A DNA stretch of 64,000 bases from positions 62,001 to 126,000 of the forward strand of contig NZ_FWXY01000004.1 in the NCBI RefSeq assembly GCF_900176365.1, written 5' to 3'. A model generated the notes under the pieces. It saw only the letters and a list, made by a program, of their open reading frames with translations. It was not told the DNA's origin and searched no databases. The position numbers and the translations under genes are program-made. Positions 27,561 through 45,696 of this stretch are shown here, one piece after another (position 1 is the first letter of the stretch; the number at the start of each line of letters is the position of its first letter). The stretch comes from Desulfocicer vacuolatum DSM 3385 (GTDB taxonomy: Bacteria; Desulfobacterota; Desulfobacteria; Desulfobacterales; Desulfobacteraceae).

Positions 27561-30323
27561 TCAAGCCAATTCTACCCATGCCAACAGCTCACTTGAATAT
27601 CCTTTTTCCGGTGTGGCAATGGCACGATGCCTCAACTCTTTTTGCAACGTCGGCTCTATATGATCATTTAAAATGGATAATCTGTTTTTAGCTGAAAAGG
27701 ATAATTTTCCAGGGGATGTGAAAAAACATGACCGGTACTGCTTCTCAACCGACGGAATTCGTTTACCGTCACTATTGACTGCAATGGGAATCACATGACT
27801 TACCGCCTCTTTTCCCTTGCCAAAGGATTGTATCAGCCAGACTGTCAGAACTGCGGGATATCCAAGCCCCATATCCGCAGTTGCCCCCAGAATCGTGGCA
27901 GGATAATCTTTGCACTGTTGAATCAATTGATTCATGATCGGATGATCCAGCCCCATCAACTCCAAGGTATCGTCTTCCTGGATTAATTCCCGGTCAAGGG
28001 TGCAGATAACAGGAGATTCGTTCTCTCTGACAAGCATTTTGAATCGTTTATCATCCATGTGAATCAGTTTTCCTTTGTTTTTTTGTGCGACCTGTTCCAA
28101 AAAACGGATAATGCGGGATTTACTGTCATCAATATTGGCAAGGGGTTTGTATTCATCAAGGCTGAAGCTGTCCAGCTCTTGAAATAACTCAAATACCACC
28201 TTTCTTGCTTCATTGGCATTGGACATGGCCTCTTCAAGTTCCTGTTGGGTTCTTTGAAGTGTGGGATCTTCCAGTGCATCCCGATACAGCTGATCATAGC
28301 TGAGCCGGTCATTCAACTGCCCCAATATCTGACCCCGAAGATCCTCGGTTACATTGCCCTGCTCATCCACTTTTCCCAATGTACGGGCAATTTCGTTGAG
28401 CTTATCCATCAAAAGTAAAAAGATCTTTCCTTCAATGGTGTCGGATAATACCAGATTGTAGACCTGGGCCGTGTACTGCTGACCATACCGATGGATTCGC
28501 CCAATCCGCTGCTCCACATCCATGGGGTTCCAGGGTAGATCAAAATTAAACAAAATGCGACTGAACTGAAGATTGATCCCCTCCCGACCGGCTGCGGTGC
28601 AGACCATCACCCGTGGTCCATCCGTTTTTCTGAACCGTCTTTCCGCAGCCAGCTTGCTGCTGTGGTCTCCGCCCCTCAATACGACCACCCCTTGACCCGG
28701 ATAGGAGGTATCAATGGCCCGGGACAGCAGATCCACGGTGGATAGATAGGTGGCAAAAATCACCACCTTTTCATTGGGATTCTGGTTCCACAATGTCCCA
28801 AGGGCACGGATCAGCTTTTCAATTTTGGTTTCCTGTTCATCAGGATACACGGCAAGCAATTCTTTAATGCGCAGACGCTCTTCAGGCAGGCACATGGCAA
28901 TGGCGGTGGCAGCCAGATTTTCGCCCTCAGCCACAACCACTTCAGATGATTCTGAAGAGGCGGCAACGGCAAGCTCCTCTTCATCCATTTTTTTGATCAC
29001 CTTGAGTTTTAAATCCGAAAGCATCTGATCCACTTCAATACGGCCCACCTGATCACGGGGCAGGTTATGGTCGGTGTGGATCATCTCCCTGGCTTCATTC
29101 ATCAATGCCAGGTGTCCGTCAATATCCAAGGCCTGATCCTTTAATATGGCCTCATGGATGGTCAGGCTGAGCTGACGTCGACGCAGGGTACTTCTGACAG
29201 CGGCAAAGCTGGATGCGGCAATTTTCTGGAAAATGGTCATCACAAATCCCAGGGCCCGGCCCTTGTTTCCCTGCTGTTTGGCCAGATTGAACCCATCAAG
29301 CAGGTATTCACGAAGCTTGGCGTAAAACGCATTTTCCCTGCCGGACATGGTAAAGGCTTCCGTATGGACCCATCGCCGGGTGAAAAGAGGGGAGCCGTCC
29401 GGGGTACAGGCATCGGCTTTGGTTCGCCGATAGACCACGGCATTGAGGCGGTGGCGTTTGTCCACCATATCATCCGGCCCTTTGAAAAGTGTGGGATTCA
29501 ACAGCTGTATCAGCATCCAGAAACGAAAATGATCTCCCTGATGGGGAGTTGCAGAAAGTAACAGCAGATCACGGGCATGGTCCCGCAAGGCCTCGGCCAG
29601 CTTGTAATTTTCGGTTTTCCGTACCTTGCGGCCCGATTTGTATGCCGACAGATGATGGGCTTCGTCAAACACCACCAGATCCCAGGGCGGGGCCTCTTTC
29701 AGTCTTTTTACCCGGGCCCGCCGTTTCAGGGTATCCACACTGGCGATCAGGCGGTCATGCTTTGCAAAGGCATTGCTTCGGCGGTCGGTGACATCCCCCT
29801 GGGCACCAAATACCTCAAAATCAAGATTGAATACCTCGTTCAGTTCCCTGTGCCAGTTGTTCACCAGACCCGCAGGCACCACCATCAAGGCCCGATTCAA
29901 CTCTCCCCGGCTGGTCATTTCCCGGAGAATCAGGGCGGTTTCAATGGTTTTACCCAGGCCCACTTCATCTGCTATCAGAAACCGTCTGGGTGATGCGGTG
30001 GCCACCCTGTGGGTCAGGACCACCTGATGGGGCAATAGATCAATCCTGGCCGCAGTCATGGCTGCGGCATTGTCCATCAACGGCAATGCATGGGCTTCCA
30101 CATAAAGCCATGCATTTCTCAGACGATCCTTGCCCCCTGACACATCGGCGAGCATCTGTTCCGTTGGGGTCTGGAGGGGGGAAATGGCATCCTGAAATAC
30201 CTGTCTCTCCCCAATGGGAAAAAAGACCCTTACATATCCGTCCGCTGTGCTGCTGACGACAATTCCCTCTCCAAATTCAGGGTGACGCACCCGTTGGCCT
30301 GCTTCAAATTTGATGTCAGACAT
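27561..30323 (-). CDS. SNF2-type helicase (HepA/RapA-like, BrxHII-like)
   Basis: About 920 residues from ATG 30323. An N-terminal small beta domain (VRHPEFGEGIVV) as in RapA is followed by helicase lobe 1 with Walker A ADEVGLGKTIETAL, DEAH box VVFDEAHH and SAT motif LLSATPHQGD. Lobe 2 has VMVCTAAGREGINLQFS and the arginine-finger motif QRIGRIHRYGQ. The SNF2 helicase of type 3 BREX (BrxHII) is of this COG0553 kind. Its start codon overlaps the stop of the preceding gene (TGATG), so the two are coupled. It is the last gene of the eight-gene operon. Confidence 0.9.
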   Translation of the reverse strand: MSDIKFEAGQRVRHPEFGEGIVVSSTADGYVRVFFPIGERQVFQDAISPLQTPTEQMLADVSGGKDRLRNAWLYVEAHALPLMDNAAAMTAARIDLLPHQVVLTHRVATASPRRFLIADEVGLGKTIETALILREMTSRGELNRALMVVPAGLVNNWHRELNEVFNLDFEVFGAQGDVTDRRSNAFAKHDRLIASVDTLKRRARVKRLKEAPPWDLVVFDEAHHLSAYKSGRKVRKTENYKLAEALRDHARDLLLLSATPHQGDHFRFWMLIQLLNPTLFKGPDDMVDKRHRLNAVVYRRTKADACTPDGSPLFTRRWVHTEAFTMSGRENAFYAKLREYLLDGFNLAKQQGNKGRALGFVMTIFQKIAASSFAAVRSTLRRRQLSLTIHEAILKDQALDIDGHLALMNEAREMIHTDHNLPRDQVGRIEVDQMLSDLKLKVIKKMDEEELAVAASSESSEVVVAEGENLAATAIAMCLPEERLRIKELLAVYPDEQETKIEKLIRALGTLWNQNPNEKVVIFATYLSTVDLLSRAIDTSYPGQGVVVLRGGDHSSKLAAERRFRKTDGPRVMVCTAAGREGINLQFSRILFNFDLPWNPMDVEQRIGRIHRYGQQYTAQVYNLVLSDTIEGKIFLLLMDKLNEIARTLGKVDEQGNVTEDLRGQILGQLNDRLSYDQLYRDALEDPTLQRTQQELEEAMSNANEARKVVFELFQELDSFSLDEYKPLANIDDSKSRIIRFLEQVAQKNKGKLIHMDDKRFKMLVRENESPVICTLDRELIQEDDTLELMGLDHPIMNQLIQQCKDYPATILGATADMGLGYPAVLTVWLIQSFGKGKEAVSHVIPIAVNSDGKRIPSVEKQYRSCFFTSPGKLSFSAKNRLSILNDHIEPTLQKELRHRAIATPEKGYSSELLAWVELA

Positions 30324-30844
30324 CAACTGATCCTTGGGTGATACAGCCCGGCCCACTCTTTACCGTCGTAATCGGCCTGGTTGTCGTCGGTGTCCATGAT
30401 CCGTTCAATCTCTTTTTCCGCACCGGAAAAAAGCAGTCGCCCCATGGGCAGGCCATCCCCACCGGTGGGTTTGTGCTTCCAGAAATAGTGTTCGCTGGCG
30501 CCTTTCATCATAATCCGAGCCCGGCCGCTGGGGACCCAGAAGATGAGTCCGGCCTGCCCTTGATAGAAATCCTGAAATGAGAGCATGGCCTCTTTAAGAT
30601 CCCTTTCAATCCATTCTTCCGCATCCTTTGTATTCAATAGATCAATGGTGCCCTCAAAACCCGAGACCACCATGGTGTCTCCATCCAGGGACGGCAGCTC
30701 TTCGGGCCAATCATCCACCTGGGAAAAGAATTGTCTCATGGAGAGCACTGCGCCCGGGTCAATCAATTGGGTCAGGATGTCACCGCTCCAGAGAAATGCC
30801 AGACCACGGCGGGGCCATCCACGGTTAAAACGTGTGTGAACCAT
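30323..30844 (-). CDS. Unknown protein of the BREX-like operon
   Basis: A 173-residue soluble protein without recognised motif. Noticeable parts are TRFNRGWPRRGLAFLWSGDI at the start, EWIERDLKEAMLSFQDFYQG, QAGLIFWVPSGRARIMMKGA and a charged tail. It lies between the methyltransferase gene (61-base gap) and the helicase gene (TGATG overlap). A conserved position in related clusters would make it a dedicated helicase or methylase partner; this is inference. It does not resemble BrxA, BrxB or BrxF as far as I can judge. Confidence 0.7.
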   Translation of the reverse strand: MVHTRFNRGWPRRGLAFLWSGDILTQLIDPGAVLSMRQFFSQVDDWPEELPSLDGDTMVVSGFEGTIDLLNTKDAEEWIERDLKEAMLSFQDFYQGQAGLIFWVPSGRARIMMKGASEHYFWKHKPTGGDGLPMGRLLFSGAEKEIERIMDTDDNQADYDGKEWAGLYHPRIS

Positions 30845-30905
30845 TACATTTCCTCATCGTAAGTATTCGGTTTGGTATTGTAAATGTTTGGTCAGTTCCC
30901 CATAT

Positions 30906-33900
30906 TTACTCCCCATCATCTGGATTACCAAATATATCCAGCTGTTTTAGGGGTTGTTTTTTCGCTGAAATTTGTTCATACAGACGGGAAGCGGTGATGG
31001 CCGCATTGCGAATCTGTGGGGTGCCGCCATGATTTCCCAGCCATTTTAAAATCTCTCCAAGGGCGGGATGGGCCGTGAACTTGGGATTGTTCAACGTATC
31101 TGCGGCATTGATACCGCTTCCCTCAAAACAGGCCCCGGTAAAGAACATGGCCTGATCATAATCGCTGTTCATATTTTTTTTCTGTTTTCCCACCCAGGAT
31201 TTGGCCATGTCCAGGGGAGGGGTGAGATGAAAGATTTTTTTATCCACATACACCCATCCCCGTTCCACATAATCCGATGGGGCCGATCCGGTACCTCTTA
31301 AAAATTTATGGATCTGATCCCTGGGAAGTTCGTTCACCCCATGAAAGAGGCGGAGCAACATGCGGGTAAAGGGCTCTGCATTGTAGGGAGGGGGTTCCTT
31401 GATATCTTCGGCTTCTTCATCCAGTAATTGATTGATTCCCACCAACGCCTCCAGAACAGATATTGGCGTGTCTTGATCCTTGTACACCTTGCCGTAATGG
31501 CGGGAAAAATATTCCAATGCTTTCCCCCGTCGGATCACCTGAAGATCAGCTTCCATCAAGCCTGCTTCCTGGTGATGTTCCAGCAATTCTTGAAGATCCC
31601 GTACATCCCGGAGAATTTGTCTTCTGAGCTTTGCCCAGGAAATGGGTTTTGAGTCTTCATTGCGTTTGCGGCACACATGGATGATGTCATATTCAATTTT
31701 TCGAGATCCAAATTCCCCTGACCCTTTGGTTTCATCACTACGAATCGGGTATGTTGCTTGAAGGTAAAAACCGGCATTGAAGAGAGATTCAAGAACCGAT
31801 ACCCACGGGGCATCTTCACTGTGGTGAAAAGTAAAAGCAAGCATACCACCGGGTTTGAGAATGCGGTGAGCCTCTTTCCAGCTTGACGTCAACAACCGCT
31901 GATAGAAAATATCAGCGTTATCTTTTCCAGTTAAATGATCTTTTCCTGGGTTACGCCCACGATTAGCAATACTTTCCAATATCTTTGGGGTGTAATGGTG
32001 TGAAAAATAATCGCGGTGTTGGTCTTTTAAAGCGATTCGTAACCAAGGATAAAAAAAATCTGACAGGTCAGAATAGTGTATAAGAGAACCAAATGGTGGA
32101 TCTGTCACAACAAAATCATAGAATGAATTTTTCTGTACTTTTAGTTCTGTAGCTGAACCACACTCTAATATAGGATGATTAAATAATTGATCTCCTGGAA
32201 AGACTTTTTCACTTTTTCCTGTTAAATGTCCACTCAACTCTTGTTTAATTTGAGTAATGATGTCATTTCGTATTATTTCCCATGGATTTTTTGACCATGA
32301 AAGTGAAACAAGTAAATTTTTTATACAAGATTGGAAATTCCCTCTACCTAAATTTGGAAACACGCAATTTTCTACAAAATTGTTTTTAGGATGATAATTA
32401 TTATTACTCATATGTGGCGCCATACAATCCCTACTAATATCCCAAAAGCAGTATATGTTCTGATTGCGCAAATATTGCTGAATACCTCCTATAACAAACA
32501 TTTTAACATCATGATTATAATCTTTTTTTGTTTCTTTAAGTGCCTTAAGAAGAGAAGTATGTACAATCATTTGCCTTGGGTTGAACATTTTCCACCAATG
32601 TGTGAACCCATGGTCAGGTTGAATATATAATTTACTGTCATTACCATGCTCATATTTGAATAGAGATTCTTTTGGGTAATAACCATCTAAGTCTGAATTT
32701 TTTCGCGTTCCCCACTCTTTCAGAGAAGCATCCAATGTTCTACTGTCATCAACTGGTACAAAAAATCTCCCACCATAGGGCTGCCCTTCTTCATGACAAC
32801 AAGGACAATATCCTTGAATTGCATACATGGAAACTGGCCCTGTTTTCCCTGATGCTTTGACCGATTTCAGGACATCCTGAACAGTTCCGCACCCCCCGCA
32901 TGAAAAGTTGCTCCTTTTGGGGACAGTACCTCCTTCTTTGCCGGTATGGATGACAACACCAGTCTCCGGACAGACAATTTCCTCCGGCAGTTTCCCCCGA
33001 ACTTCAATCAATTTGCAACTCTCTGCACGGGCCTGGTTCCATGGGATAGTCTCTTCCACCGGGTCATCCGCACTACCGCCGTATGGTCTGCCATCTGGAT
33101 CAGTGCCGGCTTCCCCTTTTAGCCAATCCGGATGCACAAGAAGAGAGAGGGAGACCTTTTTGTTGGTACCGTTGGGAAATCTCCCAAAGGTTTCTTTTTC
33201 ACCGCAGAGGGGACACACGGCACTTTGGGGTTTTTGTGTCAATTCGTCCAGTGATGCCACAACAAAAGGATATTCCGTATCCGCCACCACCAGGGGAACC
33301 CCGGGAGCCATGCGGGCATCCCGTGCTTCAAGGTCGTATTCTCCTTTGCAGTGTTTGCATCTTCGTTTCCAATGCTTTACGGAAAGGGTTTTAACAGCCA
33401 TCACCGGGGTGGACATGATGGGGGTTCGATGACCGCAACCGGTGACCTGACAGGGGCCATGTTTTGCCCAGAACACGTAAATGATCTCCGGGCCTTGGTA
33501 AGTGTACCCCTTTCTTTGTTCCGCTGACAGGGCAAAGGGATCAAAATCCTCTCCCATGATTTCCCCGGTGCTGACCTGGGTCCATTGGCCTTTATGCCCC
33601 CGTGGGCAATCACAGGTGTAAAAGGGCATGATCTGGGGTTTTACCTCGGCTTCGATCTCCGCCAGCAGTGATTCCACCTCTTCCTTGTCCACCTTGGCCA
33701 TCTCATTTTTAACGATGAACCACGCCACCGGGTTAAGGTCATTGCCGTACATCTGCATGCCAAGGCGGGAGCCCTCCACAATGGTGGTCCCGCCCCCCAT
33801 GAAGATGTCCGCCACCTTGAGATCTTTGAACGCTCCCTTTTGTTGGTGGTTGCCGTAATAGGCATTCCAGACCAGACGGGCCGCTTCCGAAGGATCGTCC

Positions 33901-34196
33901 GGTGCCTTGATGGCCGATGCCAGCAACATGGCCCGGAAAACACTGCTGCGCCGCCGTGCCCACCATTTGGACATCTGGTAGATGGGTTTTCCGGCATTGC
34001 CCTCAATGGCGGCAATCTGATTGATGGGAATGATGGGGAAATCCACCTCAATGCAGGTGAGAGGACGATGGGGATCAGAAAAATCAACGGTTTCACATTC
34101 CCACGGTTTGCCTGCGCCAACGGCCTTTGCCACCTCTTCCGCCAGCCAGTCCGCTTTTTTCATTCCCTTATCTTTCCAGGGTTGTGCTTTAGCCAT
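30906..34196 (-). CDS. DUF1156 adenine-specific DNA methyltransferase (PglXI-like)
   Basis: About 1096 residues from ATG 34196, one base after the stop of the PglZ-like gene. The DUF1156 N-terminus reads VDFPIIPINQIAAIEGNAGK and KWWARRRSSVFRAMLLAS. SAM-binding motif I is DIFMGGGTTIVEG at about residue 131 and the catalytic motif TDPPFGSLIHYSDLSDFF at about 697. Several CxxC zinc ribbons (CKHCKGEYD, CPLCGEKE, CGGCGTV, CPCCHEE) lie between. This COG1743 family replaces PglX in type 3 BREX. A segment at about 31.95-32.75 kb is clearly AT-richer than the rest of the gene. Confidence 0.9.
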   Translation of the reverse strand: MAKAQPWKDKGMKKADWLAEEVAKAVGAGKPWECETVDFSDPHRPLTCIEVDFPIIPINQIAAIEGNAGKPIYQMSKWWARRRSSVFRAMLLASAIKAPDDPSEAARLVWNAYYGNHQQKGAFKDLKVADIFMGGGTTIVEGSRLGMQMYGNDLNPVAWFIVKNEMAKVDKEEVESLLAEIEAEVKPQIMPFYTCDCPRGHKGQWTQVSTGEIMGEDFDPFALSAEQRKGYTYQGPEIIYVFWAKHGPCQVTGCGHRTPIMSTPVMAVKTLSVKHWKRRCKHCKGEYDLEARDARMAPGVPLVVADTEYPFVVASLDELTQKPQSAVCPLCGEKETFGRFPNGTNKKVSLSLLVHPDWLKGEAGTDPDGRPYGGSADDPVEETIPWNQARAESCKLIEVRGKLPEEIVCPETGVVIHTGKEGGTVPKRSNFSCGGCGTVQDVLKSVKASGKTGPVSMYAIQGYCPCCHEEGQPYGGRFFVPVDDSRTLDASLKEWGTRKNSDLDGYYPKESLFKYEHGNDSKLYIQPDHGFTHWWKMFNPRQMIVHTSLLKALKETKKDYNHDVKMFVIGGIQQYLRNQNIYCFWDISRDCMAPHMSNNNYHPKNNFVENCVFPNLGRGNFQSCIKNLLVSLSWSKNPWEIIRNDIITQIKQELSGHLTGKSEKVFPGDQLFNHPILECGSATELKVQKNSFYDFVVTDPPFGSLIHYSDLSDFFYPWLRIALKDQHRDYFSHHYTPKILESIANRGRNPGKDHLTGKDNADIFYQRLLTSSWKEAHRILKPGGMLAFTFHHSEDAPWVSVLESLFNAGFYLQATYPIRSDETKGSGEFGSRKIEYDIIHVCRKRNEDSKPISWAKLRRQILRDVRDLQELLEHHQEAGLMEADLQVIRRGKALEYFSRHYGKVYKDQDTPISVLEALVGINQLLDEEAEDIKEPPPYNAEPFTRMLLRLFHGVNELPRDQIHKFLRGTGSAPSDYVERGWVYVDKKIFHLTPPLDMAKSWVGKQKKNMNSDYDQAMFFTGACFEGSGINAADTLNNPKFTAHPALGEILKWLGNHGGTPQIRNAAITASRLYEQISAKKQPLKQLDIFGNPDDGE

Positions 34197-34197
34197 G

Positions 34198-35196
34198 TTA
34201 GTTGCTCCTGCTGATTTCGATATAGGGAACGGCAATTTCAAGCACCGTCAATCCGCCATGGGTCAGGGTGGGATATCCACCGGCGCTTTTCCATTTTCTT
34301 CGGCCGTTAACATAGCCGTATGCGCCATGCCTGCTTTCAATCTCCAGATCAATGGGGGGGACCCACCATGATCCGGTATCCATTTCATTATTGTGCCACC
34401 TGCCGCTTTTGAACTGTTTTTTCAAATAATCACTCTGCTGCTTATTGGCATCGGGGAACAATCCGCTGGCGGCATAACCGTGATCCGAAGTGATAATGAC
34501 CCGACGTCCCTGGGTCAAGCGATGAATCAACGACCAGAAACTGTCACCGGTAAAATGGAATTTTATTTCATCAACAAGGGAAGAAATTCCCTTGCCGGCT
34601 GCGTCATGGTGGTGAAGCCGATGATCCGGAAAATGGTGCCAGAATACCCAATCCGGCTCAGAACCGATCAAATCGGCGCAGGCGCTCCATTCCATATCCG
34701 TGGATTCCGTCACGGCTCCGGGTAAATGGTGGGCACTGCCGCCCCCATTGTTGGCAAGAGAGGAGCGCTGGTTAAAGCCCAATGCTTTGGCAAAGGGTGT
34801 GGTGTCTGCGGGCAGTTCCGCACAGACAGGCCCGGCCTTGTGGATGGTAAACCCTCTTTCTTTTGCCTGCTGGAGCAGCCAGGGGACTTCCCGGAGTGAG
34901 AAGGCATCAAGGATAAGAACGCCTCGACCTGTATCATGATCATTCCACCAATTGATCAGGGCGTTGGATGTCTGCGGCACAGATTGTTCATAAGTTGACC
35001 AAAGATCCCATCCGGCAGTGGCAAGATAATGGTCAATATTTCCCACTGCCCGGTCTCTTTTAATGATTTCAGAAGCCGGGTTGGTCCTGGAAACGGGTTG
35101 GGAGCAGAAGTTCCAGGCATAAGACAGAATGGAGTGCCATGCATCCTTTGAAGACTCATTTTGTATTTTCCGGACAAACTCAAGGGAACTCGTCAT
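34198..35196 (-). CDS. Compact PglZ-like protein
   Basis: A 332-residue protein that I read as a short PglZ (alkaline-phosphatase fold). A strand and metal site appears in GRGVLILDAFSLREVPWLLQ (residues 90-109), a second metal motif in VIITSDHGYAASGLFPD (233-249), and the family ending LTHGGLTVLEIAVPYIE (311-327). BREX PglZ proteins are usually 600-900 residues, so the N-terminal extension is missing. The motifs for metal binding look intact. It lies 12 bases after the RelE-like gene and one base before the methyltransferase gene, as expected for a core member of the system. Confidence 0.78.
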   Translation of the reverse strand: MTSSLEFVRKIQNESSKDAWHSILSYAWNFCSQPVSRTNPASEIIKRDRAVGNIDHYLATAGWDLWSTYEQSVPQTSNALINWWNDHDTGRGVLILDAFSLREVPWLLQQAKERGFTIHKAGPVCAELPADTTPFAKALGFNQRSSLANNGGGSAHHLPGAVTESTDMEWSACADLIGSEPDWVFWHHFPDHRLHHHDAAGKGISSLVDEIKFHFTGDSFWSLIHRLTQGRRVIITSDHGYAASGLFPDANKQQSDYLKKQFKSGRWHNNEMDTGSWWVPPIDLEIESRHGAYGYVNGRRKWKSAGGYPTLTHGGLTVLEIAVPYIEISRSN

Positions 35197-35208
35197 GGGC
35201 TGCTTTCC

Positions 35209-36111
35209 TTATTGTTTTGAGAGATTCGTCCAAAGTAATTGGGCACGTTGCATGTTCTCTTTGTATCCTTCTTTGTTGCTTTTTTTAATAAATCCCACAA
35301 GAATGGCTTGGCCATCGCCCGGAAGAGCACCAAACAGGACACGGATGGCACCTCCGGGATAGGCAGAAAATCGCAATTCTCGCATGCCGTCTCCATCTCC
35401 CAGATTTTTAAACAAAGGCTCTCCGCCTGAGAATCGTCTTTGTGCAGCCAATTGAATCTTTTTATATACCCGGTGGCGGTTGGTTTCATTCAACCCCTTG
35501 TACCATTCCCGGAATTCTTGCGTGTATATGCACTGGGAGCAGATATCGTCTATGGTGCGCTCCGTCAGGGTTTTTATCTCGTTGTGGAGTTCAATGCCGT
35601 TTTCCACCCCGGAAATATTATTGATGAAATACCGCTCTTCCCTTTTTTCATCATCATTCCATCTGGAGATGGATACCTTGCTTTTTTCCCAATGGTCATG
35701 GGTAAGAAGACTTAAAAGCGTACCATCCACCAGCCATGCAATGCCAAGGATATCCATTACTTCATTCAATCCGGAAGCCGTCAGATAGAATTGAAATGAG
35801 GCAAGTTCATCAAAGGCTTCAAGGGTTATATGGTCCAGGGCCGGACTTTTATCTTCGGCCTCCTGCAACATTAACAGTAAATCAATGAGTTGATTGGCTT
35901 CAAGTTCGTCTAAAAAATCATTGTATGTATAATTTTCAGCAAGTTGACATTCGTAGATTGTTTTATTCCTGTCATCAAAATATAGAGCGAATCGATCATT
36001 TCCGGTATTCAACTCCAGCATTCCATAACAAGCTTCAAGCATCAAATTGTAGGCGGATTTTTCATCATCGGCAGGCAGACTGAGCGTATTCAGACAAATG
36101 GCATGTTCCAT
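35209..36111 (-). CDS. Unknown N-terminal domain fused to a RelE-like C-terminal domain
   Basis: A 300-residue protein. Residues 1-185 are acidic and not recognised (FALYFDDRNKTIYECQLAEN, AFDELASFQFYLTASGLNEV). Residues about 190-300 resemble a RelE/HigB-type toxin domain: YTQEFREWYKGLNETNRHRV, FKNLGDGDGMRELRFSAYPG, IRVLFGALPGDGQAILVGFI and KKSNK. Such toxins are normally stand-alone and about 100 residues with a separate antitoxin. Here the fused N-terminal part might act as its control domain. It is tightly packed between an ATPase gene (4-base gap) and the PglZ-like gene. Confidence 0.7.
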   Translation of the reverse strand: MEHAICLNTLSLPADDEKSAYNLMLEACYGMLELNTGNDRFALYFDDRNKTIYECQLAENYTYNDFLDELEANQLIDLLLMLQEAEDKSPALDHITLEAFDELASFQFYLTASGLNEVMDILGIAWLVDGTLLSLLTHDHWEKSKVSISRWNDDEKREERYFINNISGVENGIELHNEIKTLTERTIDDICSQCIYTQEFREWYKGLNETNRHRVYKKIQLAAQRRFSGGEPLFKNLGDGDGMRELRFSAYPGGAIRVLFGALPGDGQAILVGFIKKSNKEGYKENMQRAQLLWTNLSKQ

Positions 36112-36115
36112 GGAA

Positions 36116-37204
36116 CTACCTCCGACCGGCTAATTTGGCTCTATTTATAAGGGTTTGATCAAAAAAACCTTCCGGCCAGAAATCCAGTTTCCCACTTTTG
36201 TGCAATTTCGGGGTTTCCACAACGGTCTCATATTGACTGATTTTATCCTTAACCACCCGTTGATTTTTAAAATAGTGGAAGATGGTTTTTTCACTGGATA
36301 GTTTGCCGTCTTTAACTGCCAGCCGAATGCCGTCCATCACATGTTCACTATGTGTTTCAACAATAATTTGGACCCCGGTGGATGCTGCGGATGCGATCAA
36401 GCCTCCAATGGCGGTTTGGCCCTGGGGATGCAGGTGTGCTTCCGGGTTTTCCAGTAGTATCAGAACCCCGCGATTTTCTTTTTCCTGTTTTTCATCTTCA
36501 TTTATCCAGTCTGCGGTCATGCCCAGTAACAGCACAATCACGGACAGAGTGTAACTTAATCCGAATCCGGCATTTGGGGGCCTGAATCCATTCATGGTGG
36601 CGAATGACGAGTCTCTTTTTCGTTCCACCATATGCTTGAAATCAACCCCGGGTGCCACTTCGGCAAGCCATCCCCGGACATTCCACTCCAGGGTGTCGCC
36701 TTCGGCTTGGGGATGTTTGAGCCTTGAGTCAATAGTGTCCAGTTCATGTCTGGCCAAAAAATCAATCACATACTCTCCGTATTCGCCGACATTGGATAAT
36801 TCTTCCATATATTCATAGGTCGGCAAATACACCCTTGGCCCCCACCGCTCTGCGCTTAAATAACAAACCAAAGGAAATTGGGACAGAGATTTGTCGAATG
36901 GATCCATGACAGGCCTATTTTTTTCATTGAAATTTATTTTTAAACCAATGGGAGCCCCTGAATTTTCCACTACAATTTCCATGGGGGCTTTTTTTGAGGC
37001 ATTGATATTTTTCATTTCTTGAATGGAACCGTGTTGCGGCAGGGTGGGATCACCGGTTTTGGTCCAGTTGTCCACCATTCGTATGGCCTGAATCAAAGAG
37101 CTCTTGCCTGAATTATTCAGGCCGGATAACAGGGTTAAATTTGATAATGGTATCTGTAAATTTGAAAACGATTTAAAATTGGACAGTTTGATTTGATTAA
37201 ACAT
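36116..37204 (-). CDS. AAA/ABC-class ATPase, DUF3696 type
   Basis: A 362-residue ATPase: FKSFSNLQIPLSNLTLLSGL then Walker A LNNSGKSSLIQAIR at about residues 29-43. The ABC-like region is FGLSYTLSVIVLLLG, Walker B is LILLENPEAHLHPQGQ at about 245, and the conserved ETHSEHVMDGIRLAVKDG at about 280 with a DUF3696-type tail. These proteins are related to OLD/RecF-like ATPases and often pair with DUF262 proteins or nucleases in defence loci, as here: the DUF262 gene lies 8 bases upstream. Confidence 0.85.
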   Translation of the reverse strand: MFNQIKLSNFKSFSNLQIPLSNLTLLSGLNNSGKSSLIQAIRMVDNWTKTGDPTLPQHGSIQEMKNINASKKAPMEIVVENSGAPIGLKINFNEKNRPVMDPFDKSLSQFPLVCYLSAERWGPRVYLPTYEYMEELSNVGEYGEYVIDFLARHELDTIDSRLKHPQAEGDTLEWNVRGWLAEVAPGVDFKHMVERKRDSSFATMNGFRPPNAGFGLSYTLSVIVLLLGMTADWINEDEKQEKENRGVLILLENPEAHLHPQGQTAIGGLIASAASTGVQIIVETHSEHVMDGIRLAVKDGKLSSEKTIFHYFKNQRVVKDKISQYETVVETPKLHKSGKLDFWPEGFFDQTLINRAKLAGRR

Positions 37205-37212
37205 ATTGCCCC

Positions 37213-38460
37213 TTAAATATATTTTTTCAAAATTGTGGAGAATTTTTCATACCGGTCCTTTACGCCCGAATATTTAGAACTATGTCGTGAAATCATATTG
37301 GCAGCTTCATGGGTACCAAGTAAGGAATGGTATTCATGAAGAAAATCCTTGGAATGGGATAACAACGTTTTGAATTGATCATCACTCAGCTCGGCCAAGA
37401 GATTTCCCCAGACCTCAAACAATGTCTTATTGATGGGTGCTCTGTTATTCTCTCCATGTGACTTACGGAAGGTATGAACACCAAAAAGGTCATGGGCTCT
37501 ACTCATTGCTTTTGAAAAACGTTTTTTGAGTTGTTCAATCGTAGTGATTTTCAACACCGGAATTGGCGTGTCACTGTTGTGGAAAATTTTTACGAGTTCT
37601 TTTTTCGGTAATTCCGGCATTAAATTGATAATCCGCATGGTGTCACTTAAAAATGCATCCATGTCCGGTTTTTTTTGGTATTCAGTGTATTCACGGATTG
37701 AAAAGGAGAGAAATCTTAAAATCAATTCTCTTCCGGCCATACGGCTATCCTTGACAGATGATGTTGTGGCTGTTTTATATTCAGTGGATTTGACCAAGTC
37801 AGCCAGCAATTCCGATGATTTTCCCTGGTAAAGTGCGTGCCGGATTTCTTGGGATGTCAGGGGCATTCCACCGGTATTAATTCGCTTAAAAACATTGCGT
37901 TTTACCTCTTCCGGGGTTCCTGGATTGATAATTGTAAATTGGAATTGCGTTTCCAAGATCCGATTCACCATGGTAGGTTCAGGTAAGTCATTTAATTTTG
38001 AGAAGGTAAATCCATCAAATTTATCTCCCCAGAATTCCAGCCCCGTTAATTTGAGGCCTTTTCCCTTTATTTTTTCATCTCTTGTTGCAAAATATTCGTT
38101 GCCGAGAACAAATTCTTTTATGGTGATCAACCTTTGAAGGCCATCCACAACATCCCAATTGCCTTTTTCATCGGATGCCACATAAAACATGGGAATGGGT
38201 ATTTTTAGCATCAAGGATTCAATGAGTTGACTTTTTCGCTCGTCGTTCCAGACCTCGCTACGCTGAAAAGCCGGTGCCAGGCGGATAGAGCCCTGGAGTA
38301 AACGCCGAATGACAGCATCCATGGCTATCACTTTCGGGTCCATGGATATTTTTTCTGGGTCAAATGGATCCTGCTCGTCCCTTGCAGCATCCTCGGATTC
38401 AACACCAGAGAGGCTACCGTCCGCAGCTAAATCTTCATTATATTTTTCATCGGTCTGCAT
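37213..38460 (-). CDS. DUF262 (ParB/Srx-fold) protein
   Basis: A 415-residue protein. After an acidic N-terminal stretch (residues 1-45), the DUF262 core shows IRLAPAFQRSEVWNDERKSQ, LIESLMLKIPIPMFYVA and the hallmark VVDGLQRLITIKEFVLG at about 105-121, then NVFKRINTGGMPLTSQEIRH. DUF262 is the N-terminal domain of GmrD/GmrSD-type type IV restriction enzymes; the nuclease DUF1524 domain (HNH-like) is not visible here. It may sense or hydrolyse nucleotides. It starts 46 bases after the DUF499 gene. Confidence 0.88.
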   Translation of the reverse strand: MQTDEKYNEDLAADGSLSGVESEDAARDEQDPFDPEKISMDPKVIAMDAVIRRLLQGSIRLAPAFQRSEVWNDERKSQLIESLMLKIPIPMFYVASDEKGNWDVVDGLQRLITIKEFVLGNEYFATRDEKIKGKGLKLTGLEFWGDKFDGFTFSKLNDLPEPTMVNRILETQFQFTIINPGTPEEVKRNVFKRINTGGMPLTSQEIRHALYQGKSSELLADLVKSTEYKTATTSSVKDSRMAGRELILRFLSFSIREYTEYQKKPDMDAFLSDTMRIINLMPELPKKELVKIFHNSDTPIPVLKITTIEQLKKRFSKAMSRAHDLFGVHTFRKSHGENNRAPINKTLFEVWGNLLAELSDDQFKTLLSHSKDFLHEYHSLLGTHEAANMISRHSSKYSGVKDRYEKFSTILKKYI

Positions 38461-38506
38461 GCTTTGTTCCTCTTATGGCGCACCTGCTGCCTGGGCAAAT
38501 ATGGGG

Positions 38507-41350
38507 TTATGCGTTGTTCTCTTTTTCAAGCTCCAGTTCATACACCATACCATCCGGTAATTTTCGGATCAATTCCTGAAGTTGCGCTCCGGTGAGATGG
38601 CTGATTTTTAATTCCATGGAGCGTATCTGGGTGCCGGTACCAACACCCCAGTTTTCGATTTTTCCAAGCAGATTAAGGGCAGAGGTTGCGGGTTCTGAAT
38701 GTGTGGTATAGCTGTTGCCGCCGCCAAATATCCCACCGGGTCCAGGATTGCTGCTGCCACCTAAGCCATCCCCTGAGTCCGTTCCATGGTTGCCGGGTAT
38801 ACTTGGATCTTGAATCTTACCCCCTGCTGATCCCGCGTCGCCATTGGCACTGTCTTTCCATGACTGTCCCCCTGTGGAGTCCGTTCCTGCCGGTTTATCT
38901 GGATCAGAAGAAGCGCCCCCGGTAGTGGGAACATTTTGAGGTAAAAGGATATGGGTTTCATCAAGATGCTTACCTGTTCCCAGCTTGCCCCGCATTCGTT
39001 TCCAGGCTTTGTCTTCTGTTTCACCATCTTCTTGCTGTAAATACTCCATCCCTCTTAAGTTGATGGCGATCTTTCCTTGTGCGCAAAGGTGGATGATGTT
39101 TTCTTTGACCACGGTTTCACCCAGCCAGGGGATACAATCTTTGCCACCTGGACGGGGCTCTTTCAATTCGTTGATCAGTTTACCAACGGATTCGTTATTG
39201 GGTGCCGCTTCCATGATGAAATCTTCAAAATCTTCCGGTATAAATAGATCTTCCCTGGTAATGCTATCAATGGCATCCGGGATTTTGTTCCCTTCTGCTT
39301 TGTGATTTTCTATGAGGAATTGACAGTTTTCAGGATGCTGAAAATTCCAACTTGAGATGATGGCAAACCGGTCAAATCGAGATTTTAATATTCCCCTTAA
39401 TTCTTTTTGATACTTGGTTTCCAGTCGTCTGTATTCTGGATTTTGTGATTTCCATTTTTGGGCAAGGAAGACACAGCGTGCCAGGACAATGAGATCTCGA
39501 TCAGAAAACAGGTTTGTTGATTCTTGGCGGGGGAGTAGAAACCTGACGATATTCCGATGGGTTTGCACATTTTTGCACAACCATGTTCCCAGTTGAGTCT
39601 CAAGATCCTTTTTCTTTTCAGGGGTCTGGGGCAGTATCAGCAATGGAATACGATCACCCCAGTGGTCAGGATGGTCTTTTTCATCCATTTTGTGCCAGGG
39701 ATCGGTTTGCCAGGCCTGGGGAAGCACAATAACACGAAACCGGGTCGCCACATCGGTATCACCACCAATAACATAGCGGATCTCTTTGGTGAGATGATCA
39801 ATATCTTCCTCATCTTTAAACATTCGATCATTTCTGGCACTGGCAATGAGTTTTGCCTGGGGATTCTCTTCTTCTCTGAAAATGTACCGATTGCCATCCT
39901 CATGGATATTGAAGCTGTTCTCCACAATGGTCGTCAGTTCAACCTGGAATGCATTATCATCAATGGGTATATCACAAGTGATGTCAACGTGCAGGGTGGA
40001 TTGATCCGCCCCGGCTTGATTGATTGCCGCCAGGGACCGCAGCCAAAGCGCACTGAGAATTCTTTCAAGATTCGGCAGCTCCTGACGGGTACCGGCAGCG
40101 GCATCCCTTACGGCTTCAAGGTTCCGAAGCGCTTTTTCTCTAAGCTTTGCATGGTACTGGTTTGCCACAGAATCCAATAACGCAGTAATCCCACTGGTAT
40201 CATCATCGAGCCTGAAATGTCCAGCCGTGATAATGGAGGCTTTCTGCCCATTTTTTTTATAAAGGGCTGCCAGCACCCGTATCAAATCACGGGTTTCCTG
40301 GGCTTGGGTTGCCATCAATACCTGATCTTCAAGAAGCTTCATCAAATGGGGGGCAAAGGGCCATGCCTCAATAAATTCCGTGCGCAGTCGATCTTGTTCC
40401 ACCGGTGGCGTGTCATGGAGCCTGAAGAATTCAGAGATATGAATGTTAATCAGTTTTTCAATCTGATCATCGTTAACCTGAATACGATTTTCAAAAAGCC
40501 GATGCAACAAAAGACGCAAACGGTCATGCTTTGCTGAAGGGCCTTTGAAATCGACAATCACCGGGTTGACCCTTTGAATCTGCTGGAATGCATCGGTGTT
40601 GCCTTCACGGACGGACACCACAAGAACCAGGTACTCCGGATGCTCTTTGGCAATTTCAGAAAGAATTTGAATGAAGTTGAATGTCCAGTTTTTCCAGGGG
40701 TATTGTTTTGTGTTAGTCAACCCGTCGTACCATGTTTGATATTCATCAAGAATCAGTGCGGTGGGGGTATGTTTGAACAACTCAAGCAGAATTTCATCGC
40801 TGGGGATATCTGTTTTTTTATCCCCCTGACCTTCCCATTGACCTCTGCAGTAGCTCCCATGGGGGTGATTGTCAAAAATCAAATCCCATAAAAATTTATA
40901 GCGCTGTTTATGCAGGCTTGCGCTGATTACATGGAGTCCGTCACGGAGCTGGAGAGCTTTGATAGCTTTCTCTCCCAACAGGTCGGACCAGTTTTCAAGC
41001 CATTTACGGGTTGCTGTTTGATCATTGAAGGCATGATACAGCATTCCCATTAAATGAGATTTACCTTGTCCTCTATCACCTATAATGGTTACGGGTCGGC
41101 CCTGTGATGGCCCGGATGCTTCTATTGTTTTCAACACATCATGGGAGGGATAGGTGATTCGAAGAAAATCCTCAGCCGGTATCTGGGTGGCACCGGTGTT
41201 GTTTTTGTTTGTCAGCTCAATGGCAGTGCCCTTCAGGCGCCGTCCTTTGAATTCTTGTCGAAGCTTCAGACCGAGCATATGTTCCTCCGAATTTGCCGTA
41301 CTCCTGAATACACCTTTCATACTAACGATACGTTTAGTTTTGTTTATCAT
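38507..41350 (-). CDS. DUF499 ATPase (BrxC/PglY-like)
   Basis: A 947-residue P-loop protein: Walker A TIIGDRGQGKSHLMGML at about residues 88-104, a Walker B-like LILDEYQTWYDG at about 199-210, sensor-type VLVVSVREGNTDAFQQIQRV. A long helical region and a glycine/serine-rich linker (about 835-905) come before the C-terminal domain. This COG1483 family is the BrxC/PglY-type ATPase of BREX and Pgl systems, though 250 residues shorter than many. It heads the operon. ATG 41350 or 41320 could be the start, and neither has a strong ribosome site. Confidence 0.87.
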   Translation of the reverse strand: MINKTKRIVSMKGVFRSTANSEEHMLGLKLRQEFKGRRLKGTAIELTNKNNTGATQIPAEDFLRITYPSHDVLKTIEASGPSQGRPVTIIGDRGQGKSHLMGMLYHAFNDQTATRKWLENWSDLLGEKAIKALQLRDGLHVISASLHKQRYKFLWDLIFDNHPHGSYCRGQWEGQGDKKTDIPSDEILLELFKHTPTALILDEYQTWYDGLTNTKQYPWKNWTFNFIQILSEIAKEHPEYLVLVVSVREGNTDAFQQIQRVNPVIVDFKGPSAKHDRLRLLLHRLFENRIQVNDDQIEKLINIHISEFFRLHDTPPVEQDRLRTEFIEAWPFAPHLMKLLEDQVLMATQAQETRDLIRVLAALYKKNGQKASIITAGHFRLDDDTSGITALLDSVANQYHAKLREKALRNLEAVRDAAAGTRQELPNLERILSALWLRSLAAINQAGADQSTLHVDITCDIPIDDNAFQVELTTIVENSFNIHEDGNRYIFREEENPQAKLIASARNDRMFKDEEDIDHLTKEIRYVIGGDTDVATRFRVIVLPQAWQTDPWHKMDEKDHPDHWGDRIPLLILPQTPEKKKDLETQLGTWLCKNVQTHRNIVRFLLPRQESTNLFSDRDLIVLARCVFLAQKWKSQNPEYRRLETKYQKELRGILKSRFDRFAIISSWNFQHPENCQFLIENHKAEGNKIPDAIDSITREDLFIPEDFEDFIMEAAPNNESVGKLINELKEPRPGGKDCIPWLGETVVKENIIHLCAQGKIAINLRGMEYLQQEDGETEDKAWKRMRGKLGTGKHLDETHILLPQNVPTTGGASSDPDKPAGTDSTGGQSWKDSANGDAGSAGGKIQDPSIPGNHGTDSGDGLGGSSNPGPGGIFGGGNSYTTHSEPATSALNLLGKIENWGVGTGTQIRSMELKISHLTGAQLQELIRKLPDGMVYELELEKENNA

Positions 41351-42289: not shown

Positions 42290-42922
42290 TTACCTCGGCG
42301 GCCAGAGGTCTTCCCGTTCTATACGCCTTTCAATGACATAGTGTGAAACTCCAAATGGTTTACATAGTGCGGTGCTAATGTGGTTCAATGTCATAGAAGG
42401 GTCTTGAACGAGTAGATTTTCTAAGCCGTTGTCTTTTAATAAAACAAGACATTTTTTGAGTTCTGTTGCCAGTGCTTCTTTTGGAACTAATGCTCTTCCA
42501 GCAAATTCATTTGCTTGAAATTCAAAAAAACTATACTGTCTTTCTGAAAGCCGATCCATGAATGATTTCCATCCATTTAAATCAGTGATCCCGAATTTTT
42601 TATATGTGTCCTGATGCAAAAAAAAGTGACCAAGCTCATGTGCAAGGGAAAACCTTAGCCGGTTGGCAAATCGTTCATCCATATAGCGTGCATAGTCAAC
42701 GACAACGCCGGTAAGGTCAAATCTCAAATAAGCGTCGATGTCATACTCACTAAGGAGGTCATGTTCCGGTTCGATATACATTCCTAAGTCATCTTCAATG
42801 ACCTTTTCAATATCAATGGGCAGTTCATTTCCCTTGCAATATTTTTCCCTAAATCGTTCTGCTACCTTCCATATTTCTTTTTTGTCTATGTAGGGACACT
42901 TAAAATCCGAGATGGTTAGCAT
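42290..42922 (-). CDS. ImmA/IrrE-type zinc metallopeptidase
   Basis: A 210-residue protein with the zinc-peptidase motif RFSLAHELGHFFLHQDTYKK at about residues 88-107 and a second conserved part FFEFQANEFAGRALVPKEAL that includes the third zinc ligand. ImmA proteases cleave phage-type repressors to induce mobile elements such as ICEBs1. It overlaps the XRE gene by one base (42922), the classic ImmA/ImmR pair, so it most likely controls island 2. Confidence 0.92.
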   Translation of the reverse strand: MLTISDFKCPYIDKKEIWKVAERFREKYCKGNELPIDIEKVIEDDLGMYIEPEHDLLSEYDIDAYLRFDLTGVVVDYARYMDERFANRLRFSLAHELGHFFLHQDTYKKFGITDLNGWKSFMDRLSERQYSFFEFQANEFAGRALVPKEALATELKKCLVLLKDNGLENLLVQDPSMTLNHISTALCKPFGVSHYVIERRIEREDLWPPR

Positions 42923-43287
42923 TAACCTCCTTCTCCTCTAATTTTTTCTATAAGCATTTCTAATTCCTCATTAGTCGGCTTTTCATTTCTTACCGTCCTG
43001 AAGAACATTGGTAGCGCGCTTAGTGTTTCGTCGTTTGACAGGAGATCCTTGGGGATTATTCCTGCCGAAATAGCCGCTTTATCTTTCAATTCGTTGTACA
43101 GCTCAGAATCTCTTTTAATGCTCAATACTTCAGCAATACTGTTTAGTTTTTCTTCGTCTTGTGGTGGTGCTAAAAGTTCTCTTTCAATCTTGCTCCAGTT
43201 GCTTGCATCGTGTGATAGCCGACGGCAAAATTCCCTTAGGCCGATATCTCTCTCAATCCTGAGAGATTTGATGAATTTACCAAACAT
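42922..43287 (-). CDS. XRE-family repressor (ImmR-like)
   Basis: A 121-residue DNA-binding protein with an N-terminal HTH (FGKFIKSLRIERDIGLREFC, then RRLSHDASNWSKIERELLAP) and a helical C-terminal tail likely targeted by the ImmA-like protease encoded next. Paired with the palindromic site in front of it (43406-43424), it probably represses its own promoter and, directly or not, genes of island 2. The ATG at 43287 has AGGGAGGTG upstream, a strong ribosome site. Confidence 0.88.
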   Translation of the reverse strand: MFGKFIKSLRIERDIGLREFCRRLSHDASNWSKIERELLAPPQDEEKLNSIAEVLSIKRDSELYNELKDKAAISAGIIPKDLLSNDETLSALPMFFRTVRNEKPTNEELEMLIEKIRGEGG

Positions 43288-43771: not shown

Positions 43772-45103
43772 CTAATAACCAAAATCCATTACATCTGTTA
43801 AAAGATCTCTTACCTGGCGGTCGATTCGCTTTTTGAATTCATATTCTATTTCTTGGTCAGTAAGGTGCTTGATGCTTTTGTTGAAATACTCAACAAGAAC
43901 TTTTTTCATCATTTTTAGATCATATTTATCAAAATTCGGAACATATTTAGTTCTGTATTTATGATGTTTGATTTGGAAATATGAGCGTACAAACTTTTTG
44001 GGTTGTATTGTTACTCTAAATCTTGTCATTAATATCACTACGTAATGATCTAATTCGTGAAGCAACGATTCATCGTTCATTTCAGAGAAAAAGAATAGCC
44101 AACCTTTGCTCTTGTTTTGAAAGATGCATCCAGTTATTCTAAGATTTAATCTCCACTCTAAAAACTTTTTACTTTTTATTTTTGAGTGTTTGTAACCTGA
44201 AAAAATGGAAACTATGGATTCTTTTAATTTAAGAACAGAATTTGTTCTTGCTGAGGTTAATGGTCCTTTAAACAAGTAACCTAAATAACTGAACTCATCA
44301 CCAATCTTCCCAACCACTGACTTTTCAGGCACTTTTTCAGGGTCATGAATAGTTAATCCTATTTTTTTAAAAAGCAGGATAACCTTTTGCGTGATCGTTT
44401 TAACGTCCCGTTCGTCACACAGGATAAGAATGTCATCAACATATCTAAAATATTTTACCTCACTCAATGCCGATAGTGTTTTGTCAATGTTGATCAGGTA
44501 AATCGCTGCTAAAATATTAGAAATAGATAATCCTTGAGGGATTCCCTCTGAATTCTCTTTATCGTGTTTAAAAGACTTTATAACCGTTGCTGTCTTTATC
44601 GCTTTTTCAATGAATTCTTTTATCTCAGGATTTCGAATTTTCCGGCCCAGTCTTAGTTTCAGTTCTTTATGTTTTATACTGGGATAATATGAGGCGACAT
44701 CAAGCTTTATGAAAGCATTGTACCTACCGCTCATGGTAGCATTTTTTAAATTCTTTATTAAGACTTGCGGAATATCAAAATGAATGGTTCCGTCGTAACG
44801 ATCAATCAGAAAGTTGCATAGTGCCTTTAGCGCAATACGATCTCTAATCGTTGGAATAGATATTTCTCGTGGTACTTTTCCTTTACCCTTACTGATTAGT
44901 TTCAGCTTGTATTTGGTAAACTTGTAGGTCCCATTCAGAGTTTTTCGAGATATAATCTCGATCTGATCATCAAGGATTTTGTTAAACTGCTTTTGATTAA
45001 GGTTATCTATTCCTTGAGCAGGTGAGTATACTATATGCTCGGTATAAATCTTTTTTAGATATATTTCTGATAGGAATTCCTCGAAATCTTGTCGAACAGT
45101 CAT
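43772..45103 (-). CDS. Reverse transcriptase, defence-type (UG/DRT-like)
   Basis: A 443-residue protein. The RT fingers begin near SPAQGIDNLNQKQFN, followed by ISIPTIRDRIALKALCNFLI, motif A AFIKLDVASYYPSI (Asp135), motif B GIPQGLSISNILAAIYL (187-203) and motif C YFRYVDDILILCDE (YVDD at 221-224). Residues after 270 are a basic, helical C-terminus without a maturase or endonuclease domain. No NAxxH or VTG retron signatures were found. It starts one base after the stop of the SLATT-like gene, so the two are coupled. Base composition is clearly AT-rich relative to its surroundings. A role in phage defence is inferred from context. Confidence 0.88.
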   Translation of the reverse strand: MTVRQDFEEFLSEIYLKKIYTEHIVYSPAQGIDNLNQKQFNKILDDQIEIISRKTLNGTYKFTKYKLKLISKGKGKVPREISIPTIRDRIALKALCNFLIDRYDGTIHFDIPQVLIKNLKNATMSGRYNAFIKLDVASYYPSIKHKELKLRLGRKIRNPEIKEFIEKAIKTATVIKSFKHDKENSEGIPQGLSISNILAAIYLINIDKTLSALSEVKYFRYVDDILILCDERDVKTITQKVILLFKKIGLTIHDPEKVPEKSVVGKIGDEFSYLGYLFKGPLTSARTNSVLKLKESIVSIFSGYKHSKIKSKKFLEWRLNLRITGCIFQNKSKGWLFFFSEMNDESLLHELDHYVVILMTRFRVTIQPKKFVRSYFQIKHHKYRTKYVPNFDKYDLKMMKKVLVEYFNKSIKHLTDQEIEYEFKKRIDRQVRDLLTDVMDFGY

Positions 45104-45104
45104 A

Positions 45105-45677: not shown

Positions 45678-45696
45678 ACCAACCTCCAATGAAAAA

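Follow-up and report, generated by a model that had tools for sequence, protein, structure and literature searches.

A 64,000-nucleotide stretch of the Desulfocicer vacuolatum DSM 3385 genome (contig NZ_FWXY01000004.1, positions 62,001 to 126,000; hereafter the window, whose own numbering is used throughout) contains eight co-directional minus-strand open reading frames (ORFs) that form one tight operon at 27561-41350. Five of the encoded proteins, a DUF499 ATPase, a stand-alone PglZ, a DUF1156 methylase, a protein of 173 amino acids (aa) and an SNF2 helicase, fit a Type-3 BREX-Related (BR) system by sequence (BREX, bacteriophage exclusion). The three genes between the first and second of these are identified from their sequences as a complete Menshen system, NsnA-NsnB-NsnC, the Nsn symbols being, as we take them, those of Menshen. 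An earlier note on this DNA had described eight genes on one strand with these domains and gaps of 4-46 bases, and the layout is confirmed by the ORFs, by scans with hidden Markov models (HMMs) and by the junction sequences. The features of the operon, from its first gene onwards, are listed below (E, E-value).

38507..41350, minus strand: DUF499 AAA+ ATPase, first core gene, 947 aa (PF04465, E 1.8e-9; Walker A GDRGQGKS, Walker B ALILDE)
35197..38506, minus strand: extent of the putatively inserted cassette, from the DUF499 stop to the PglZ start (junction bases; no insert of at least 600 bp at this junction in 88 of 88 near relatives)
37213..38460, minus strand: NsnA of Menshen, DUF262/ParB-like NTPase, 415 aa, first cassette gene (PADLOC PDLC03877, E 2.9e-128; VDGLQR and FKRINTGG motifs)
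36116..37204, minus strand: NsnB of Menshen, OLD-type ABC ATPase with a DUF3696 tail, 362 aa (PADLOC PDLC03878, E 8.7e-95)
35209..36111, minus strand: NsnC of Menshen, 300 aa, with a C-terminal Gp49/RelE-like domain (PADLOC PDLC03894, E 1.6e-127; PF05973 Gp49, E 7.6e-11 at 202-291)
34198..35196, minus strand: stand-alone PglZ, 332 aa, core nuclease/phosphatase candidate (weak PADLOC PglZ match, E 2e-6)
30906..34196, minus strand: DUF1156 adenine methylase, core, about 1096 aa from its ATG (PF01555, PF06634; DPPF, FMGGG, four CxxC)
30323..30844, minus strand: conserved 173-aa core protein, candidate inactive NTPase, iSTAND-like (conservation, AlphaFold model, fold matches)
27561..30323, minus strand: SNF2 helicase, core, about 920 aa from its ATG (PF00176, PF00271; GLGKT, DEAH, QRIGRIHR)

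Scans of the operon proteins with Pfam, PADLOC and NCBIfam HMMs returned DUF499, GmrSD_N/DUF262, AAA_15 with DUF3696, Gp49 (RelE-like), a weak PglZ, DUF1156 with N6_N4_Mtase, and SNF2. By coordinates, the cassette-side gaps measure 46 bp between DUF499 and NsnA, 8 bp between NsnA and NsnB, 4 bp between NsnB and NsnC and 12 bp between NsnC and PglZ, while the junctions 3' of PglZ are tight or overlapping both by coordinates and by junction sequence. From the junction sequences, the probable start codons are the ATG at 34196 for the methylase (its ORF is open to 34241) and the ATG at 30323 for the helicase (open to 30356). Catalytic and nucleotide-binding motifs are intact in both parts of the operon, namely Walker A and B in the DUF499 ATPase, DPPF and FMGGG in the methylase, the helicase motifs, VDGLQR in NsnA, and the Walker A (GLNNSGKS) and signature (GLSY) motifs of NsnB, which also carries a Walker B-like VLILLENPE. 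The G+C content at third codon positions, a weak indicator, is 0.42-0.47 in the cassette against 0.46-0.62 in the core genes. A promoter and terminator scan of the window found sites no more numerous than in shuffled sequence, which says little.

The available text of Rakesh and Krishnan 2026 (PMC12839542) describes Type-3 BR as comprising a DUF499 ATPase, a methylase, a nuclease-free helicase and a stand-alone PglZ, together with an inactive STAND protein in 82% of cases, and holds DUF499 apart from the true BrxC (DUF6079). The operon ATPase matches PF04465 without any DUF6079 match, and it gave no PADLOC BrxC match at E<=0.1, the same library finding BrxC in another locus of this study (L164). 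The methylase is an N6-methylase with DUF1156, and the SNF2 helicase is free of nuclease fusion, with no nuclease domain outside the helicase region in Pfam or NCBIfam and no PD-ExK-like pattern. In the case of PglZ, residues D97, D191, D238, H239 and H313 are invariant across 9 sequences, the window copy included, and its profile matches the solved PglZ structure 9nv3_C (E 0.003). These aspartates and histidines presumably form the metal site. No BrxA, BrxB or BrxF match was listed for the eight operon proteins (E<=0.1) or the seven scanned flanking proteins (E<=0.01), the best 25 PADLOC matches being listed for each of the helicase, the methylase, NsnB and a flanking reverse transcriptase; the BrxF models recover BrxF in a positive control (L174). 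The earlier remark that brxA and brxF are not visible agrees with these lists as far as they reach, and the note's assignment to a type 3-like BREX gives way to the published Type-3 BR, since neither BrxC (DUF6079) nor BrxF was matched and type 3 BREX proper is ruled out.

The 173-aa protein, which had been counted among the extra genes, is a conserved core component: 80 of 88 near core relatives have its gene in the interval from methylase to helicase, and the other eight are short contigs or contig ends in which the helicase is missing as well. It was not found in the three distant loci examined (L017, L021 and L022). Scans with Pfam, PADLOC and NCBIfam gave the protein no match at E<=0.1, and it was rejected as BrxF or BrxA by sequence, having neither a PADLOC match nor a PDB sequence match. 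An AlphaFold model built with 41 sequences (predicted local distance difference test score 88.7, predicted template modelling score 0.86) resembles, among the structural matches listed, mostly RecA-like and other P-loop NTPase folds with Z <=4.8, including the Psy3-Csm2 and Shu1-Shu2 entries; values of Z <8 may merely reflect a common arrangement. A Foldseek search with the model returned no match at E<=0.001, and rank 10 was a chain of a BrxC-BrxB-PglZ complex (9zll_E) at an E-value of only 0.81. A motif check found no Walker A in the protein. Its role as an inactive NTPase is consistent with the model and, as a candidate assignment, unproven.

The three genes between DUF499 and PglZ are present with the gaps first reported, and they turn out to be one known module, since the PADLOC matches to NsnA, NsnB and NsnC are near full-length, adjacent and in that order. 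The Gp49/RelE-like domain makes NsnC a probable RNase effector. According to the accessible part of PMC10952713, Menshen contains a gene with DUF262 and one for a predicted OLD nuclease, and in the ptuXYZ system the third protein combines PIN-like and YoeB-like parts, as far as the consulted text of PMC11980606 goes. As a separate observation, the third Menshen gene is highly variable in L133-L137 and L164, with 13-25% identity to the window NsnC and a DUF4160 domain in L134, which is in line with an exchange of effector domains.

Relatives of the core were collected by a PglZ-alignment scan of genome contigs from 84,980 species, which gave 223 related stretches, of which the best 80 were kept. 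These stretches, 4 of 37 plasmid records and 7 further loci make up 91 loci, and removal of the distant L017, L021 and L022 leaves the 88 near relatives, in which the best segments of the DUF499 ATPase are 36-72% identical to that of the window. The order DUF499-PglZ-methylase-173-SNF2 occurs in all 80 near relatives that have the five genes, a conservation far beyond chance. Insertions of at least 600 bp were counted at each junction: DUF499/PglZ has none (0 of 88), compared with 19 of 83 at PglZ/methylase, 6 of 80 at methylase/173 and 10 of 80 at 173/SNF2, and 29 of the 80 complete operons carry at least one (five carry two). A Fisher test of 0/88 against 35/243 at the other junctions gives p = 2e-5, a weak measure in that relatedness is ignored. 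Two loci (L042 and L072), with no methylase match in the 1.75 and 3.2 kb behind PglZ, lie outside the counts, which therefore overlook any insert or loss at that position. In ten relatives the space from DUF499 to PglZ measures 333-396 bp, and these gaps were considered and rejected as inserts; eight form one blastp cluster that repeats the DUF499 C-terminus by eye. In L031 and L032 a C-terminus-like motif lies in an open frame within this gap; of the eight clustered loci, two (L027 and L030) contain the motif by the same check and six do not. By eye, the three distant loci with larger gaps also seem to hold DUF499 C-termini there, without support from the motif check. An ATGA overlap as a general feature of this junction was also discarded, such overlap occurring in just 15 of 69 tested loci. 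No Nsn gene lies inside any of the 88 near relatives, and in L040 a 28% NsnA-like match lies downstream of the helicase; elsewhere, NsnA-like matches (E<=1e-30) were found in 2 of 49 core-bearing genomes searched whole.

The contents of the insertions were identified by scanning representatives with PADLOC or Pfam and assigning the others by blastp clusters. SIR2-HerA is present in 4 operons and IetAS in 3, an AAA gene with DUF4276 (HEC-01) in 6 with both genes clustered and 3 more with the AAA gene only, an AAA gene with a PDC-M47B-like gene in 2, PDC-M30A with DUF5131 in 1, and a type IIG-like enzyme in 1. In total, 20 of the 35 insertions could be named, and the other 15 have no assignment, hold small toxin-like genes (by eye) or belong to other single families. 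Two proteins from this survey are recorded for their own sake: a recurrent 307-315 aa protein at the PglZ/methylase junction of L056, L059 and L074, a candidate defence effector whose L056 copy has no Pfam or PADLOC match, and a 426-aa cassette protein in L024 (11002-12282, plus strand) with no Pfam match above the cut-off and no PADLOC match at E<=1e-5.

Closely related operons differ in what their junctions contain. L069 and L087, with 89%, 95% and 92% DNA identity over three stretches, carry SIR2-HerA and IetAS, respectively, at the same junction, and their similarity breaks off some 20 bases short of the end of the PglZ match, to return 14 nucleotides ahead of the methylase match. Seven further pairs, 76-94% identical, oppose a filled to an empty junction (L058/L094, L096/L074, L059/L075, L055/L085, L071/L083, L056/L100 and L095/L098). 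On a FastTree phylogeny of methylase and helicase (71 rows), the fewest occupancy changes at the four junctions in order are 1 (the window itself), 11, 4 and 9. The window branches among rows with an empty DUF499/PglZ junction, with a top identity of 71% (L012); this placement is qualified by the flagged letter make-up of the window, a long branch (L041) and a support of only 91 for the fork uniting the window with its 12 nearest rows. At the window itself, DNA similarity reaches to within 6-12 nucleotides of the DUF499 end in 3 of 5 compared relatives. Taken by sequence, these comparisons suggest that whole defence systems at varied joints are swapped like plug-ins. The stronger proposal, in which Type-3 BR operons would serve as a plug-in chassis where abortive systems are exchanged cleanly at fixed junctions and the nested system is functionally tied to its host as a guard or second stage, is one that we regard as rather doubtful.

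One such operon also occurs on a plasmid: in Citrobacter freundii (L014, 11827-24429), the core operon with SIR2-HerA lies on a conjugative plasmid with a carbapenemase gene, and many Klebsiella plasmids have PglZ matches of identity equal to that of this copy, whose DUF499 match begins at residue 238. A PglZ search of viral contigs gave no match.

Menshen was likewise sought outside this core. NsnA was searched in 395 genomes of the same phylum (27 with matches at E<=1e-15, the own genome included; the best 8 of 32 further places were examined), in 398 genomes from the phylum of the L028 genome (13 places in 10 genomes at E<=1e-50, all examined) and in the 49 core-bearing genomes (2 of 3 places examined). 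NsnC was searched in 340 genomes of the same order (five foreign matches at E<=1e-12, all examined) and in plasmids (one record), and gave no match in phages. None of the 29 Menshen places has the window core within 7-20 kb, and partial core-like matches are confined to a DUF499 at 22% identity in L181 (E 7e-4), helicases in L137 and L164, and a methylase in L164. NsnA and NsnB stand in tandem at most of the 29 places, with L165 and L166 showing NsnA only. A second NsnA-NsnB pair exists in the D. vacuolatum genome itself (L135, contig C29), with 36% and 31% identity to the window pair.

The closest Menshen found, L180 (genome G975, contig C1, 2361-11971; NsnA 74%, NsnB 77% and NsnC 71% identical by tblastn), separates the gene of a resistance-nodulation-division (RND) pump from that of an outer-membrane channel; TetR and HlyD genes lie ahead of it. 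The corresponding locus L186, whose pump and channel are 77% and 67% identical to those of L180, lacks an intervening Menshen. This branch of Menshen is thus able to insert cleanly into operons of quite different kinds. These data bear on a rival explanation, pure operon-riding, in which Menshen would land behind any expressed gene and borrow its promoter, its BREX-related host here being accidental. Of 27 Menshen places (all but L183 and L184), 24 have an upstream ORF that shares the strand of Menshen, and in 14 it is within 120 bp; identical counting upstream of DUF499 in near core relatives gave 40 and 18 out of 72. Moreover, close upstream genes include a class I tRNA synthetase (L136, 44 bp), a transketolase (L140, 24 bp) and RND pumps (L161, 77 bp; L180, 85 bp). 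Operon-riding nevertheless leaves the gathering of SIR2-HerA, IetAS and HEC-01 in this operon family unexplained; compatible with independent layers as it is, we consider it a serious possibility that falls somewhat short of even chances.

The neighbours of Menshen also bear on a second alternative, in which the nested module would be a wired guard that monitors the core and is triggered once a phage inhibits or escapes it, by analogy with PrrC. Nested defence modules recur in this operon family, and Menshen itself is nested in a type-3 BREX-like operon (L164/L174, genome G565, contig C27) comprising WYL, BrxF, two PglXI, BrxC and BrxH genes. There it lies between the second PglXI and the helicase, NsnA overlapping PglXI by 4 bp; no PglZ or BrxA match was seen in this operon, whose contig ends 1.6 kb behind the helicase. 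Precedents for a guard are the PrrC anticodon nuclease, which a linked type I restriction enzyme keeps silent and a phage anti-restriction factor activates (PMC2610378, as far as its consulted text goes), and the OLD-ABC modules proposed as back-up in BREX in the available text of PMC12839542. Against it, large neighbours were scanned or annotated at 14 of the 29 Menshen places, and two of these have methylation-system neighbours (L164, and L137, where Menshen follows PLD-like, SNF2 and type IIG-like genes); one has a GmrSD-like gene (L181), and several of the remainder stand behind housekeeping genes. Domains that are shared or resemble an interface were not found, and a guard function appears distinctly unlikely.

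The explanation that we favour, and judge fairly probable, is that a complete Menshen system has been inserted between genes one and two of a Type-3 BR operon, where it would act as an autonomous second layer under the same promoter. This reading draws on the domain content, the intact motifs, the Menshen-free order of the core relatives, the occurrence of Menshen outside the core, and the presence of other modules at other junctions. One transcript would produce both systems. In the first layer, the methylase would mark host DNA, the DUF499 ATPase and the 173-aa protein would sense unmarked DNA, and the SNF2 helicase with PglZ would attack it. In the second, NsnA may sense a phage-related signal that the NsnB ATPase relays, and the RelE-like domain of NsnC would cut RNA and stop growth. 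The two layers are probably independent of each other and would benefit from using one promoter and being inherited together. Independent layers may hold alongside the guard, complementary-specificity and passenger readings, and the probabilities do not add up to one.

Several observations weigh against this explanation. The nesting in L164/L174 implies that the position of Menshen beside methylation systems may not be chance. In L181 (62-77% identical) and L182 (51-65%), Menshen lies 202 and 398 bp behind the upstream ORF, a sarcosine-oxidase-like gene in L182, and is not clearly in an operon. The exact insertion point in the window is unreadable, similarity resuming at least about 160 bp inside PglZ, and a base-precise statement is impossible because the relatives are too distant. 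Finally, co-transcription of the eight genes is predicted from their spacing, and the independence of the two layers is itself no more than probable.

The DUF262 domain of NsnA raises a further alternative, complementary specificity, in which NsnA would detect modified phage DNA beyond the reach of the core, as BrxU complements BREX. DUF262 is common to GmrSD and BrxU, and a GmrSD encoded within a BREX operon gives protection against T2, according to the consulted part of PMC12373910. On the other hand, NsnA has no DUF1524 nuclease, its motif reads VDGLQR compared with the published (I/V)DGQQR of GmrS, and the signal sensed by Menshen was not found in the literature searched, the key Menshen study lying outside that search. 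We hold this idea with little confidence. Less probable by far is a single integrated eight-protein defence machine. It would be compatible with the single operon, the tight spacing and the intact motifs, but the eight-gene order was found in 0 of 88 near core relatives and 0 of 29 Menshen places, and there is no sign of an eight-part machine because core relatives lack the module and module relatives lack this core. The distinct BREX variant proposed in the earlier note therefore largely falls within the searched scope, the eight-gene order being seen in this genome only and a survey of neighbourhoods finding none elsewhere. Its suggestion that methylation and abortive modes are combined holds insofar as one operon unites a BREX-like set of methylation type with a module that is probably abortive. 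What survives is nesting as a recurrent habit.

Extra effectors embedded in BREX and BR operons have already been published (PMC12839542, and GmrSD in a BREX operon, PMC12373910, both as far as consulted). In the main text of PMC12839542, Menshen appears in the reference list only, and SIR2, subtilase, IetA and DUF4276 are absent, the supplements lying outside the search. No title or abstract describing Menshen nested in a BREX-like operon was found; Li et al. 2025 and supplements were outside this search, and such a case could be in print. A literature search combining Menshen, BREX and DUF262 returned PMC10952713 only. The general nesting pattern weighs more than this single operon: defence islands are loose neighbourhoods, whereas here whole systems stand between the genes of one operon. 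The pair L069/L087 amounts to a natural experiment, with the same chassis, a different plug-in and similarity that ends and resumes within about 20 bases of the neighbouring genes. It makes it possible to test whether nested systems protect the host system as guards, complement it or are mere passengers. For annotation of BREX-like operons, additional genes may point to two systems and not to one new one.

The surroundings of the operon contain further elements. Upstream of DUF499 lies a pair encoding a helix-turn-helix (HTH) protein and an ImmA/M78-like peptidase (42290-43287, minus strand), with two terminator-like stems (41947-41919 and 41633-41606) between the pair and DUF499. A reverse transcriptase of the UG17 class and an associated SLATT protein (43772-45689, minus strand; PADLOC RT_UG17 E 1.8e-160, RTasSLATT E 5.9e-54) constitute another defence system just upstream of the operon. 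The region is flanked by a tyrosine integrase (23131-24003, plus strand), a resolvase (46666-47283, plus strand) and a tRNA-Glu (51958-52032, minus strand), and these flanks resemble those of a mobile island.

Compared with known systems, the core shares with Type-3 BR, as described in the available text of PMC12839542, the DUF499 ATPase, the DUF1156 methylase, the nuclease-free SNF2 helicase and the stand-alone PglZ, with the small 173-aa protein as a candidate for the inactive NTPase, and the four CxxC of its methylase recall the published subset with two 4C fingers; it differs in holding a complete Menshen between DUF499 and PglZ. With Hma (Type-1 BR) it shares homologous proteins, the helicase and methylase matching HmaA (323 bits) and HmaB (136 bits). 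As published, Hma has neither PglZ nor the inactive NTPase, and its helicase is fused to a nuclease in 79% of cases; the window operon has a PglZ and no such fusion. The L164/L174 operon likewise unites a methylase, an SNF2 helicase and Menshen, but BrxC and BrxF replace DUF499 and the 173-aa protein, and Menshen occupies the PglXI/helicase site. As in BREX operons with an embedded GmrSD or BrxU, a DUF262 protein is embedded in a methylation-based operon; BrxU is a single protein with an HNH nuclease domain, whereas Menshen consists of three proteins with a RelE-like domain. The ptuXYZ system is apparently the same trio as Menshen, with a RelE-like third gene as in ptuZ, as far as the consulted text of PMC11980606 goes. 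Relative to Menshen, all three genes and their order are the same, and the window copy differs by its nesting inside another defence operon.

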